A stretch of 38,747 nucleotides of DNA. Source: Deltaproteobacteria bacterium (GTDB lineage Bacteria > Desulfobacterota > Binatia > UBA9968). A program made the translations under genes and the position numbers. This document shows, one piece after another, positions 1,671 to 37,799 of this stretch (positions within the stretch are counted from its first letter, which is position 1; every line of letters begins with the position of its first letter). The notes below the pieces were generated by a model. That model had not been told where the DNA came from. It saw only the letters and a program-made list of their open reading frames with translations, and ran no database searches. The stretch covers positions 1 to 38,747 of the forward strand of contig JACPSE010000144.1 in NCBI GenBank assembly GCA_016193465.1, in the 5' to 3' direction.

Positions 1671-1761
1671 TTTAGTCGTTCAAGTTGTTCAAGTAGTTCA
1701 AATCGTTCAAAACGTTTTAAACGGCTTGAACGGCTTAAACGTTTTGAACTTTTTTTGGCGG
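1671..1761. repeat. gyrB-gyrA spacer: 9-bp tandem repeat plus hairpin
   Basis: The spacer holds four copies of a gttcaa(g/a) heptamer with exact 9-bp period (starts 1678, 1687, 1696, 1705). The last copy forms the left arm of a perfect 13-bp inverted repeat, gttcaaaacgttt at 1705-1717 and its complement at 1737-1749, with a 19-nt loop. Seven T follow at 1750-1756 on the plus strand, so the terminator-like polarity is opposite to gyrB-gyrA transcription. In the gyr mRNA the hairpin lies just after the gyrB stop and could tune gyrA expression; that is inference. Confidence 0.8.
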
Positions 1762-5215: not shown

Positions 5216-5242
5216 TTGACAAACCCCTTCCACGGGTGTAAT
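5216..5242 (+). promoter_or_regulatory. Candidate sigma70 promoter for riboswitch 1-tonB
   Basis: A perfect -35 TTGACA at 5216-5221 and a -10 TGTAAT (5 of 6) at 5237-5242 are separated by 15 nt, slightly short of the optimal 17. It lies directly upstream of the first conserved bases of the cobalamin riboswitch and downstream of the cobS hairpin, where a promoter for the tonB transcript is expected. Confidence 0.5.
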
Positions 5243-5464
5243 GGTTTGCCTCGTTACATTGCTCTGAGGCTTCATAGGGAAGTCCGGTGTAATTCCGGCG
5301 CGGTCCCGCCACTGTGATGGCCACGAAAGCCGCGAGCTAAGCCACTGTCGGTAATCGTTTTTCGTGTTCGTGAGTCATTTGACGAGCACGAGTACCGAGC
5401 ACGAGCGACGAACCGGTGGGAAGGCGCGGCGAGTAGGTTAAAGCCTAAGCCAGGAGACCTGCCT
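5243..5464 (+). ncRNA. Cobalamin riboswitch 1 (upstream of tonB)
   Basis: An adenosylcobalamin-sensing leader RNA. The conserved core is visible in order: agggaagtccggtgtaattc around 5277-5295, cggtcccgccactgtgatgg at 5301-5320, agccactgtcgg around 5340-5351, ggtgggaaggcg at 5415-5426, and the B12 box aagcctaagccaggagacct at 5441-5460. The variable stem between the gccactg and gggaaggcg segments is enlarged (about 5352-5412) by palindromic cgtgttcgtg/cgagcacgag sequence. It lies about 90 nt before the tonB ATG, so B12 should repress tonB. Confidence 0.95.
5358..5412 (+). repeat. Palindromic repeat inside the riboswitch variable stem
   Basis: The segment holds tcgtgttcg near 5362-5370, which can pair over 9 bp (one G-U) with cgagcacga, and a second cgagcacgag copy. 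The same words, cgtgttcgt and cgagcacgag, recur in the glmU-glmS spacer (34499-34613), and a decayed form is at the tonB 3' end. It appears to be a small dispersed repeat accommodated in a stem of the aptamer that tolerates length change. Confidence 0.65.
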
Positions 5465-5481
5465 AGAGCACCTTAGCCGGC

Positions 5482-5556: not shown

Positions 5557-6330
5557 ATGAGGCTAGCCTCGTGGTTGCTGATCTCTGTTGCCGTTCATAC
5601 GGTCATCCTCTCTTTGCCTGTCTCCTTCTTGGAGAGACGAGGGGAACAAATAGTAGTTCCGGTGACTCTCGTCAGTGGAGGCGGAGAAGGTAGGGTCGGC
5701 ACAGGGGGAGAAGGTGGTATGGATGGAGGCAGGCGAGAAGCAACGCCTCCCGTGCGCCAGCATCGCGCTGGAGCACAGAGAACGGAGGAGCAGAATCCTT
5801 CCGATGGCAGCGATCGGGAAGAGACAGCAGGCCCAACGAATCGACGTATAGTCATTAATGGAGAGTTCTCCGGGCAAGGGTTGACAGTGGCTGACTTCAA
5901 AGGCGAGGAGGGTGGGCAAAGCGTTTCTTTTGGGGCAACGGGAGAAGGAGGTAATGGAGCAGGATTTGTTGGGAACGGCAATGCTCAGGGAGGAGCAGGC
6001 TTTGGCGGATCGCGTGGGGAGGGTGGTCTGCCCGGGTCAGGTTTCGCACGAGTCACCTACGCCTACAATCCCAGGCCGAGCTATCCGGAAACGGCGCGCC
6101 GGGAAGGATGGGAGGGAACGGTTATCCTGCGGGTTTTGGTGGATCGCGAAGGAAGCTCAAGATTGATTGAAATCAGCCGGAGCTCGGGGTTCGACACTCT
6201 CGATCGGGCTGCCGTGGAGACAGTTAAGTCCTGGCGTTTTCATCCCGCGCACTACGGACAGAGGCGGGTGGAGAGCTGGGTTAAGATTCCCATTGTGTTT
6301 AGTCTCTCGGACCGTGATCGTGGTTCGTGA
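5557..6330 (+). CDS. tonB: TonB family energy transducer
   Basis: Couples the inner-membrane proton motive force (through ExbB/ExbD, not present here) to outer-membrane TonB-dependent receptors. It has 257 residues: a short cytoplasmic start, one N-terminal membrane anchor (about residues 4-22), a Gly-rich rather than Pro-rich periplasmic spacer (about 45-165), and a C-terminal TonB domain with RPSYPETARREGWEGTVILR and AAVETVKSWRFHPA. It starts at an ATG after cobalamin riboswitch 1 and is followed by riboswitch 2 and btuB, so it is probably a dedicated TonB for B12 uptake. The last codons (SDRDRGS, stop) are made of cgtgatcgtggttcgtga-type sequence resembling the dispersed spacer repeat, so the C-terminal tail may be repeat-derived. 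Confidence 0.9.
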   Translation: MRLASWLLISVAVHTVILSLPVSFLERRGEQIVVPVTLVSGGGEGRVGTGGEGGMDGGRREATPPVRQHRAGAQRTEEQNPSDGSDREETAGPTNRRIVINGEFSGQGLTVADFKGEEGGQSVSFGATGEGGNGAGFVGNGNAQGGAGFGGSRGEGGLPGSGFARVTYAYNPRPSYPETARREGWEGTVILRVLVDREGSSRLIEISRSSGFDTLDRAAVETVKSWRFHPAHYGQRRVESWVKIPIVFSLSDRDRGS

Positions 6331-6399
6331 CCGCGTTTGTGACGAGCGCGAGTGCCAAATCGCGAGCATCATTCGTTTACGGCAAGGAGGGCGACGAAA

Positions 6400-6563
6400 A
6401 GGTTTTATCAACCGCAGATGGATTCAAGGGAAAGGGGTGAAATTCCCCTGCTGCCCCGCAACTGTGATGGCCACGAAAGCCGCAATGTAAGCCACTGCCC
6501 TGAGCTAAGTCGAAGGGTGGGAAGGCGCGGCAAGTAGGTTGAGGCCTAAGCCAGGAGACCTAT
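6400..6563 (+). ncRNA. Cobalamin riboswitch 2 (upstream of btuB)
   Basis: A second full adenosylcobalamin aptamer. Core elements: aagggaaaggggtgaaattc from about 6426, ctgccccgcaactgtgatgg at 6451-6470, aagccactgccc from 6489, gggtgggaaggcg to 6525, and the B12 box gcctaagccaggagacct. Its variable stem contains ccctgagctaagtcgaaggg (6498-6517), a near copy of a short palindromic repeat common in many bacterial genomes. The btuB ATG follows 45 nt later. Having one riboswitch for tonB and one for btuB means each gene is controlled independently by B12. Confidence 0.95.
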
Positions 6564-6607
6564 CCATTCTGCCTCAACAATCCCCTTTCGCGGGAAAAGG
6601 AGGCTTT

Positions 6608-8473
6608 ATGAAGTTTTTCTTTCTGCTTTTCTTTTTGGTGTTTTCCCCTATTTTTTCTCTGGCCGGGGAGCCGCAACAGGAAGAGACCCTGACGCCCGTA
6701 GTGGTGACGGCGACCCGGATTGAGACGCCCCAGCAGGAAGTGACCACCTCGGTCACGGTAATCACCTCCGAGGATATTCGTGCGCAACAGGCAGAGATGG
6801 TCTTGGAGGTCCTGCGCAACGTGACCGGCGTGGATGTTGTCCAATCCGGGTCGCGGGGAAATACCACGTCCATTTTTATTCGCGGCTCTAATTCCAACCA
6901 GGTCCTGGTATTGGTGGACGGGATGGAGGTGAATAGCGTCACAGCGGGAAATTTTGATTTTGCCCATCTGCTTACTGACAACGTAGAGAGGATTGAAGTC
7001 CTGAGAGGAGCCGGCGGCACTCTTTACGGCTCCAAGGCGGTTGGAGGTGTCATCAACATCATCACGAAGAAGGGACAAGGCAAGCCCCAAGTAACCCTCT
7101 CGGCTGATGGCGGCAACGGAAGAAACCACCGCGAGGTGCTGGGCCTATCGGGAAGCTACGGGGCGTTGGGCTACTCTTTAACCCCGAGCTATCTTCGAAC
7201 CGGCGGCTTTAGAGCGACCAACGATAATTACCGCAGCGGGGCGCTGTCCGCCCGTTTGGACTATGACGTTATCAAAGATGGATCGCTGAAAGCGATCCTG
7301 ACTATGACCGACACGAGCCTCGGGTTGGTCAACGACGACGTCTCATGCGAGGCGTTGGATCGCGATGCTCATCAAAAAGACCAGCATTGGACAGGCCAGA
7401 TGGAATGGAAACAGAAGCTCCTCCCGCAATGGGACTACCGCCTGTCCATGGGAGTGAACCAGTCGCACGAGCTTTTCAGGGATGCCGATACCTCTTGTTT
7501 TTCTCCGCGGCGCACGTTGATCAGGCCGCGCATTCTATCCCCCCAATTCCAGACGAATTATCGTTTTGGATCAGGGCATCACCTGACATTCGGAGTGGAC
7601 CTCGACCGGAGGTATGCCAAGTACAGGAACACCGACTCCTCCGGGGATATGACGGCGTTCAACAAATCCCAGAGCAATCAGGCGCTCTATCTTCAGGACC
7701 AATTCAAGCTTCTGAGGGAGCGGCTGATTCTGGTCGGCGGCATTCGGTATGACCACAATGGCGACTTTGGCTCTGAATGGAGCCCTGCGTTGTCAGCGGC
7801 CTATCTCGTCCGAGAGACCGGGACAAAGCTCAAGGCAAGTTACGCCGAGGGTTTTAGAGCGCCTGCCTTCAATGACCTATTCTTCCCTGGCTTTAGTAAC
7901 CCTAATCTCAGCCCCGAGGTGAGCTGGGAGTTTAACGCGGGGATAGAGCAACGCCTGTGGCAGAACAGGTTGAAACTGGAAACGATTTACTTCCATCGCG
8001 AGGTCAAGGACCTTATCGTCTTTCGCGGCTCCAAGCCGGAAAACGTGGGGCAGGTGATCTTCGACGGCGCCGAGATGATTCTAGAAGCCCTGCTGGGTTA
8101 TGGCTTCTCATTCAAGGGCAATTACACCTATGTGAACTTTAGCGACCGTCTCACGCGCCGTCCCAAACATAAGGCCAACCTGATCCTGGGTTACCAAAAC
8201 GGCCCCTTGAACATCCATTTCAACTCCCATGTCACGGGCCGCCATCTTGATGTTGACGCGGTGAATTTTAACACCATCGACAAAGGCGGGCTTAGCCGCT
8301 TCGACCTTTCCTCCTCTTATGCTCTCCCTTGGCAACCCCCGGGCACCAGACAGGTTAGCCTCTACGCCAAGATAGAAAATCTCTTTAACAAGAAATACGA
8401 GGAGGCGGACGGTTTTCGCGCCCGCCCGCTCAATTTTCTGATCGGCGTCCGGGGGACTTTTGGAAAAGATTAG
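6608..8473 (+). CDS. btuB: TonB-dependent vitamin B12 outer-membrane receptor
   Basis: Outer-membrane beta-barrel importer of cobalamins, powered by TonB. It has 621 residues from the ATG at 6608, preceded by an aaaggagg Shine-Dalgarno. A signal peptide (MKFFFLLFFLVFSPIFSLAG) is followed by the TonB box region (TPVVVTATR) and the plug domain, with VTVITSEDIRAQQ, SIFIRGSNSNQVLVLVDG and RIEVLRGAGGTLYGSKAVGGVINI. The 22-strand barrel region ends KYEEADGFRARPLNFLIGVRGTFGKD. It lies directly behind a cobalamin riboswitch, which fixes the likely substrate as B12. The next gene starts about 60 bp downstream and probably shares the transcript. Confidence 0.95.
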   Translation: MKFFFLLFFLVFSPIFSLAGEPQQEETLTPVVVTATRIETPQQEVTTSVTVITSEDIRAQQAEMVLEVLRNVTGVDVVQSGSRGNTTSIFIRGSNSNQVLVLVDGMEVNSVTAGNFDFAHLLTDNVERIEVLRGAGGTLYGSKAVGGVINIITKKGQGKPQVTLSADGGNGRNHREVLGLSGSYGALGYSLTPSYLRTGGFRATNDNYRSGALSARLDYDVIKDGSLKAILTMTDTSLGLVNDDVSCEALDRDAHQKDQHWTGQMEWKQKLLPQWDYRLSMGVNQSHELFRDADTSCFSPRRTLIRPRILSPQFQTNYRFGSGHHLTFGVDLDRRYAKYRNTDSSGDMTAFNKSQSNQALYLQDQFKLLRERLILVGGIRYDHNGDFGSEWSPALSAAYLVRETGTKLKASYAEGFRAPAFNDLFFPGFSNPNLSPEVSWEFNAGIEQRLWQNRLKLETIYFHREVKDLIVFRGSKPENVGQVIFDGAEMILEALLGYGFSFKGNYTYVNFSDRLTRRPKHKANLILGYQNGPLNIHFNSHVTGRHLDVDAVNFNTIDKGGLSRFDLSSSYALPWQPPGTRQVSLYAKIENLFNKKYEEADGFRARPLNFLIGVRGTFGKD

Positions 8474-34498: not shown

Positions 34499-34613
34499 GA
34501 TCGTTACTCGTGTTCGTTGTTCGTGTTCGTCATTCCTGTTTGTGGCCGGGCTCTGGCAATCCTGTTTCTTCTTTCAACCTTCACGAGCACGAGCCACGAT
34601 CACGGAGCACGAT
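34499..34613. repeat. glmU-glmS spacer built from CGTG/CACG palindromic repeat
   Basis: The segment contains ctcgtgttcg and ttcgtgttcgt (34507-34530) and, about 50 nt further, cacgagcacgagccacgat and cacggagcacgat (34582-34612). The two sides can pair, giving a long imperfect hairpin in the glmU-glmS mRNA. The same words occur in riboswitch 1 (5358-5412). No clear Shine-Dalgarno for glmS was seen here, so the structure may influence glmS translation or mRNA processing. Confidence 0.65.
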
Positions 34614-37653: not shown

Positions 37654-37799
37654 GAGCCTGTAGAAAAAGTCCCAGCAACTAAAAAAGTGCCAAATTGGGG
37701 GTACCTGAATGGTCTCTCGATCCGAGATCATCGCTTAAAAGCCAAATACGGAGGTCGCTTTTCTTGTAAATTTCTCGATCTACCTTTTTCTACAGGCTC
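37654..37799. mobile_element. 146-bp MITE-like element with 16-bp terminal inverted repeats
   Basis: gagcctgtagaaaaag at 37654-37669 and its exact complement at 37784-37799 bound 146 bp with no ORF. The termini resemble ends of some DDE insertion sequences (a tttttcaacaggct-like motif), from memory. It is probably a non-autonomous, internally deleted derivative. No convincing target-site duplication is visible. Its right end (37796-37799) overlaps the R' core of attC2. Confidence 0.7.

Follow-up and report, generated by a model that had tools for sequence, protein, structure and literature searches.

The window, the whole 38,747-nt stretch of DNA analyzed here, is one complete contig of a draft genome of 4.5 Mb in 238 contigs. 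It harbors two cobalamin riboswitches that flank tonB (5557..6330, + strand; Pfam TonB_C, E 5.9e-23). Aptamer 1 is located in the tonB leader (5225..5480, +), and aptamer 2 (6383..6581, +) precedes a gene for a btuB-like TonB-dependent receptor (6608..8473, +; Pfam Plug and TonB_dep_Rec_b-barrel; start codon chosen by eye). Both match RF00174 over its full length (model positions 1-189), with 86.1 and 94.4 bits, respectively, at a gathering cut-off of 31.5 bits. Between the sequences AGCCACT and GGGAAGGC each aptamer carries an apical arm, here called site A. In aptamer 1 this arm is enlarged to 71 nt (5347..5417, +), and 61 of its residues stand against only 4 model positions in the Rfam alignment. 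In aptamer 2 the equivalent arm is the 22-nt, REP-like palindrome GCCCTGAGCTAAGTCGAAGGGT (6497..6518, +), which agrees with an earlier note on this DNA that had seen a different palindrome there. We place site A in the P6 accessory region, which the part of PMC9600662 available to us describes as highly variable in length.

The outer six nucleotides on each side of the aptamer 1 arm (5347-5352 and 5412-5417) are able to pair as a basal stem. They enclose a copy of a dispersed imperfect hairpin, the TCGTG element (5354..5411, limits set by eye), the right arm of which is longer than the left. The words from which the earlier note considered this arm to be built are present: cgtgttcgtg at 5363-5372 and cgagcacgag at 5383-5392 and 5396-5405. 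A further word match at 34584-34593 lies in the spacer between glmU and glmS, which had likewise been pointed out and which is filled by another TCGTG element (34499..34613). A third copy in the window, missing from that note, is degenerate (6312..6352; arm 6312-6333 with two mismatches) and overlaps the 3' end of tonB. The last codons and the stop codon of tonB are supplied by this copy (region 6303-6352). The aptamer 1 arm folds better than most shuffled versions of itself (z -2.04), with 5 of 200 shuffles equally good. A fold of the whole 296-nt leader did not show the aptamer, was no better than shuffles (z -1.28) and was set aside.

Within the window the two 10-mers, with at most one mismatch, occur 10 and 7 times against means of 3.7 and 1.6, above 100 of 100 shuffles. 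Genome-wide, the bare 10-mer CGAGCACGAG shows a modest excess, with 80 matches compared to 61 for the reversed control. On its own it is thus weak evidence of dispersal and was dropped as proof. Among the 30 of these 80 matches that were retrieved, 28 are part of an array of TCGTG words 22 nt long (at up to three mismatches). Within about 130 nt, such words were found on each of the two strands at 27 of the 30 matches and at 31 of 689 random places in the same loci. The extended motif, TCGTG-N-TCGTG-NN-TCGTG-N-TCG, yields 85 matches in this genome (G000) versus 2 for the control at up to one mismatch, 110 versus 20 at up to two, and 38 exact matches. The dispersal suspected in the earlier note is therefore seen with the extended 22-nt motif and not with the bare word. 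In a full element, TCGTG words separated by 1 and 2 nt form the left arm, CACGA words form the right one, and a loop lies between; each arm measures at least 22 nt and the loop 2-73 nt. Some copies are single-armed, and 74 arms form 42 groups. More than half of the element overlaps a called ORF in 6 of 22 long-flank elements, compared to 89% of random placements. Of 17 elements with a called gene on each side, 16 are located between co-directional genes, one between convergent and none between divergent genes, all of these locations resting on crude ORF calls.

The motif (up to one mismatch) was found in all 17 genomes of the window's family, with 2 to 85 matches each, and in none of 12 relatives outside this family. 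These 29 genomes comprise our own and relatives. Among the relatives identified through the btuB-like protein are three uncultured Deltaproteobacteria assemblies. In the phylum, 6 of 395 genomes contain the motif: our own, two of one other family with two matches each, two with single matches, and G314 with 190. The last belongs to another family (contigs C1 and C2), and the ten matches listed include runs 13 nt apart. The TCGTG element is thus dispersed, mostly intergenic and concentrated in one bacterial family. Twenty-three plasmid records match, with a query coverage of at most 20% among the 20 listed, and three viral contigs contain one exact match apiece. In a literature search for the repeat letters, the matches listed carry the 11-mer TCGTGTTCGTG alone and, by title, none deals with such repeats.

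The spacer between glmU and glmS allows orthologous sites to be compared in 19 family genomes that were read, of 25 with a GlmS match. In 15 of the 19, including G003 of the same genus, glmU and glmS leave no spacer, the stop codon of the first overlapping or adjoining the start of the second. The gap is filled by a TCGTG element with a recognizably shared loop in G000 and G001, and G002 retains an apparent remnant. G029, a member of another genus, harbors TCGTG words with a different loop, an independent insert. No element was found at this site in G003 or in the remaining 14 of the 19 genomes. Inspection by eye revealed inverted arms but no clear target-site duplication. This shows that the element is present or absent at orthologous sites, and from this pattern we infer that it is mobile.

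The cobalamin riboswitches of the family were surveyed. They occur in 20 of 25 genomes, 38 in total, of which 18 correspond by position to aptamer 1 (tonB switches) and 20 to aptamer 2 (btuB switches). The switches were segmented by anchor sequences, with the btuB switches of G031 and G032 and several L4 segments delimited by eye. Large hairpin inserts are present in 16 of the 38 (4 of 18 tonB and 12 of 20 btuB switches), belong to several repeat families and occupy three loops. None of 17 switches outside the family contains a large insert, site A measuring 14-22 nt and L4 being normal; in some of these, site C reaches up to 44 nt, without the insert words of the family. Site A is at least 60 nt long in 11 family switches, of a 22-nt type (CCTGAG..CGAAGG or CCCGAG..CGAGGG) in 15, and short or otherwise built (11-23 nt) in 12. 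One of the 11 large arms is the TCGTG arm of the window and seven we assign to hairpins of GATTTT words, found in the tonB switch of G004 and the btuB switches of G010, G015, G032, G033, G035 and G036; those of g9 and g11 are diverged. Two more, one in each switch of G008, are CCCCCTCTTTCATC hairpins, and the tonB switch of G029 carries a 90-nt insert of GTTCAA words. The window itself contains a counterpart of the latter outside its riboswitches, a hairpin at 1674..1754 with tandem GTTCAA words and inverted arms at 1700-1717 and 1737-1754. The suggestion that a single permissive place accepts unrelated palindromes is upheld across the 38 family switches.

Two further loops receive inserts. 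Site B is L4 according to the numbering in the accessible parts of PMC9600662 and PMC10653944. It measures 60-155 nt instead of 8 in 10 of 20 btuB switches and in none of the 18 tonB switches, with the L4 of G034 counted as normal. Four of these inserts contain GATTTT words (G005, G014, G015 and G031) and have C-rich and G-rich flanks that could pair, two carry a CCCTCTCCCTC..GGGAGAGGG repeat (G008 and G009), and four lack a firm family assignment (G032, G033, G035 and G036). Those of G005, G014 and G015 (L094, L102 and L103) look nested, with GATTTT words within a larger insert. At site C, between GAGTAG and AGCCAGGA, TCGTG hairpins are found in the btuB switches of G006, G015 and G033. G005 (L094) shows a fourth kind of site: past the btuB aptamer, its expression platform holds a CCCTCTCCC repeat ahead of GCGGG. 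In G035 (L145) and G036 (L147), tonB is missing from the place before the btuB riboswitch, where another cobalamin aptamer ends instead.

Repeats of the TCGTG, GATTTT and CCCTCTCCCTNNGGGAGAGGG types were also counted in whole genomes. Besides our own, G006 and G015, which carry TCGTG inserts in riboswitches, contain 74 and 22 matches to that motif. A 26-nt GATTTT-type pattern, at up to one mismatch, was found in 14 of 17 family genomes and in none of 12 outside. It matches 5 times in G004, 35 in G005, 17 in G010, 5 in G014 and 13 in G015 and, at up to two mismatches, 25 times in G031, 30 in G032, 68 in G033, 2 in G035 and 12 in G036, counts that include the riboswitch copies and overlapping registers. 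Our own genome has one match, and dispersal is unconvincing in G035. CCCTCTCCCTNNGGGAGAGGG yields 62 matches in G008 and 24 in G009, many sites being counted twice as it is a near-palindrome. In G024, from another family of the same order, it matches 372 times (190 forward, 182 reverse).

Despite the inserts, the aptamer core, L5 and the expression platform appear intact at the sequence level. All 38 family switches pass the Rfam cut-off, the lowest with 46.5 versus 31.5 bits. The L5 segment CTGCTGCCCCGC is kept in all 20 btuB switches, and its likely L13 partner reads GCGGG in 18 of them and GTGGG in two (G032 and G034). In the window such kissing-loop partners (L5-L13) were examined in aptamer 2 and are present there, with CCCGC in L5 and GCGGG downstream. 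The 11 large site-A arms all have four or five standard pairs among their first five. Insertion into a structured RNA without breaking its core, as proposed in the earlier note, is consistent with this conservation and with the location of the insert in a region known to vary. The Rfam covariance model places the 5' half wrongly in at least three of the switches (G005, G014 and G015), which calls for caution in RNA family searches.

The content of a given loop differs between sister species, a comparison that rests on draft assemblies. In the tonB switch of g1, site A holds the TCGTG hairpin in G000 and 22 nt in G001 and G002. The TCGTG arm is absent from the orthologous tonB switches of the two same-genus genomes in which that switch was detected. 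Since the window arm no longer contains the 22-nt hairpin of the sisters, the element has taken its place and was not cleanly inserted into an arm like theirs. In the btuB switches, site A contains two different large hairpins in g6 (G008 versus G015) and, in g9, 22 nt in G031 compared to GATTTT hairpins in G032 and G033. In the tonB switch of g7 it measures 17 nt in G009 and 90 nt in G029. Mapped on a GlmS tree, the contents of site A require at least 9 changes in the tonB switches and 9 in the btuB switches, those of L4 at least 5 and those of site C at least 3. This is a maximum likelihood tree of one gene with 23 rows, of which 10 of 20 inner branches are starred, and the states were assigned by eye. 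The two switches of G008 share a near-identical insert, perhaps by gene conversion.

The arm of aptamer 2 probably has a different history. Its CCTGAGC..GTCGAAGG type is a widespread REP-like one, found in 15 of 38 family switches and also in both switches of G017, which belongs to another family. Exact copies of the REP-like word CCTGAGCNNNGTCGAAGG were counted in 25 of 29 genomes, among them 106 in G015, 124 in G008 and only 3 in our own. Because the arm type is common to the sisters and its word is so rare in our genome, the 22-nt arm of the btuB switch is more likely to be inherited than to be a separate recent insertion. The arm type itself likely goes back to an ancestral REP insertion. 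The claim that both aptamers had accepted unrelated palindromes is supported for the tonB switch, which does contain a dispersed hairpin, but probably does not hold for the btuB switch in the form of a separate event.

The TCGTG elements follow an unusual pairing pattern. It was analyzed in 62 paired elements (37 from G000, 17 from G006, 4 from G011, 3 from G012 and 1 from G033), aligned in the register of greatest identity. The TCGTG words match between the arms at 997 of 1116 positions, whereas the linkers match at 32 of 248, compared to 90.0 expected from shuffled pairings (sd 7.8; 0 of 10,000 as low). The deficit is seen separately in G000 (18 of 148; 0 of 10,000 as low) and G006 (12 of 68; 20 of 10,000); G011 alone, with 2 of 16, shows no significant deficit (2549 of 10,000). 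It is found with loops of up to 5 nt (4 of 68, 26.3 expected), with longer loops (28 of 180, 63.9 expected) and in elements with near-perfect words (16 of 140, 49.0 expected). Of the linker cells, 74 are G.T (on the strand read) and 68 A.C; a further 74 hold other mismatches, and 32 form Watson-Crick pairs. Only 2 of 121 off-consensus word positions are altered alike in both arms, so that the words look conserved by sequence and not by pairing. A simple model of two arm types is incomplete, as orientations are mixed in 28 of the 62 elements, and for the same reason a single asymmetric master copy explains the linker rule only in part. The tendency to mispair is weaker in the GATTTT elements, to which a model with two fixed types of arm fits better. 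In 19 of them, matches were counted at 12 of 57 linker positions (20.8 expected; 189 of 10,000 shuffles reach so low a value) and at 73 of 114 TT positions (84.8 expected; 15 of 10,000). The linker rule could arise if long perfect palindromes are avoided, if structure serves as a recognition signal or if there were several asymmetric master copies.

Taken together, the arm of aptamer 1 is best read as a copy of the dispersed TCGTG hairpin that inserted into, or replaced, the expendable tip of a P6-accessory arm and is tolerated there, with turnover; we give this reading a probability of about 0.86. Hairpin families, TCGTG and others, would insert widely in untranslated DNA, and selection would then remove those insertions that break the aptamer. 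The survivors would be self-contained hairpins that lengthen a stem (site A), enlarge L4 (site B) or fill a second loop of the accessory region (site C). Old inserts would be lost while new ones arrive, and such turnover would leave different families in the same loop of sister species. The insert itself is probably near-neutral for B12 sensing. Site A is a natural place for insertion. L4 takes part in the tertiary packing of the riboswitch core, and inserts at that site are therefore more surprising.

An ordinary, fast-evolving peripheral stem that merely resembles a local repeat, without any insertion, would fit the known variability of site A, the long stem-loop insertions of riboswitches described in the accessible part of PMC2258182 and the bare 10-mer count that barely exceeds its control. 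Such a stem is very improbable, because the extended motif is dispersed (85 versus 2), comes and goes between glmU and glmS, and has other dispersed repeats as its counterparts in the same loop of other family switches. Alternatively, the hairpins might be actively targeted to existing hairpin loops as single-stranded DNA. GATTTT hairpins nested in larger L4 inserts, and REP-like and other words inside TCGTG loops (L009, L015 and L019), point in this direction. A test on the 62 elements nevertheless gave no support to such targeting: their flanks pair less well than shuffled ones (mean -10.3 versus -11.5 kcal/mol), with better pairing in 200 of 200 shuffles, and no unusual structure is seen in the 34 loops of at least 20 nt (mean z -0.14; three below -2). 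We regard it as quite improbable.

The elements might also be protein-binding sites, an operator or a nucleoid signal, instead of mobile units. This would agree with words that are conserved without covariation while the linkers vary, but of the 17 elements with a called gene on each side none lies between divergent genes; the presence or absence at glmU-glmS, with loops of differing sequence, and the copies inside riboswitch loops also argue against binding sites, which we consider improbable. A functional insert, kept because it tunes the leader RNA in its folding, stability or processing, is unlikely as well. The high frequency of large inserts in btuB switches (12 of 20) and the folding of the window arm, which beats most shuffles, speak for it. 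Tolerance is suggested instead by a loop that holds unrelated families in sister species and no such insert in others, and changes in the words are almost never compensated (2 of 121).

Insertion and tolerance of a dispersed hairpin remains the preferred reading, and the dispersed-hairpin observation for the tonB riboswitch is confirmed. Across this family of uncultured bacteria, short hairpin repeats scattered through the genomes have come to occupy a small set of loops in B12 riboswitches time and again, one replacing another, apparently without harm to the sensing core. A more far-reaching proposal is that the TCGTG elements, and probably the GATTTT elements, constitute a distinct class of mobile hairpins with pairing words, linkers actively kept mispaired and a machinery as yet unrecognized, and that their serial insertion and replacement is the main source of new B12-riboswitch domains in the family, including L4 and the platform. 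We put this forward tentatively, as a possibility with less than even odds. For a unit that moves as a whole, inter-arm loops of 2-73 nt are odd. An association with Y1-transposases was not supported: TCGTG arms closely flanked none of the 10 loci examined, of 18 Y1 domains in the genome, and two of the 10 have one TCGTG arm about 0.9-1.2 kb away.

That riboswitches tolerate stem-loop insertions is already known. Barrick and Breaker (2007; PMC2258182) reported variable aptamer insertions and, in the accessible part of the article, name the optional P8-P10-P11 domain. No origin of the insertions is given in that part, whereas those of the present family are copies of hairpins dispersed through the genome and vary from one sister species to the next, so that a source becomes visible. 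In effect, nature has carried out an insertion scan of a large aptamer in this family, which also offers ready-made pairs with and without an insert for tests of tolerance and tuning. Separately, the mispairing of the linkers provides a quantitative clue to how the elements are recognized or maintained.

Comparable dispersed palindromes within structured RNAs are the Rickettsia palindromic elements, which are inserted in tmRNA and M1 RNA and are possibly neutral (Ogata et al. 2002, as cited in the part of PMC2229807 available). Those elements are shorter, occur in another bacterial group and interrupt housekeeping RNAs, whereas here riboswitches are affected and several families share a loop. 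In a literature search on riboswitches with palindromic, miniature or mobile repeats, no dispersed repeat in an aptamer loop was found among the matches listed, subscription papers being mostly outside its scope. REP sequences, according to the part of PMC3733652 consulted, are units of 20-40 bp that bear an unpaired tag, GTAG or CGTC, on one of their ends. Like REPs and REPINs the elements of this family are short, dispersed and mostly intergenic palindromes, and the CCTGAGC-type word of aptamer 2 is itself REP-like. The TCGTG elements differ from them in consisting of arrays of 5-nt words with mispaired linkers, variable loops and longer units. REP/REPIN systems are associated with RAYT transposases; no RAYT-like gene flanked by TCGTG arms was seen in the 10 of 18 loci examined. 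With MITEs they share the small, non-autonomous form and the formation of stem-loops in transcripts. The accessible text of PMC10969869 suggests that MITEs could form riboswitches or terminators, and none inside an aptamer loop is described there. The window also contains a MITE-like unit bounded by perfect 16-nt inverted repeats, GAGCCTGTAGAAAAAG, at 37654-37669 and 37784-37799, 114 nt apart.
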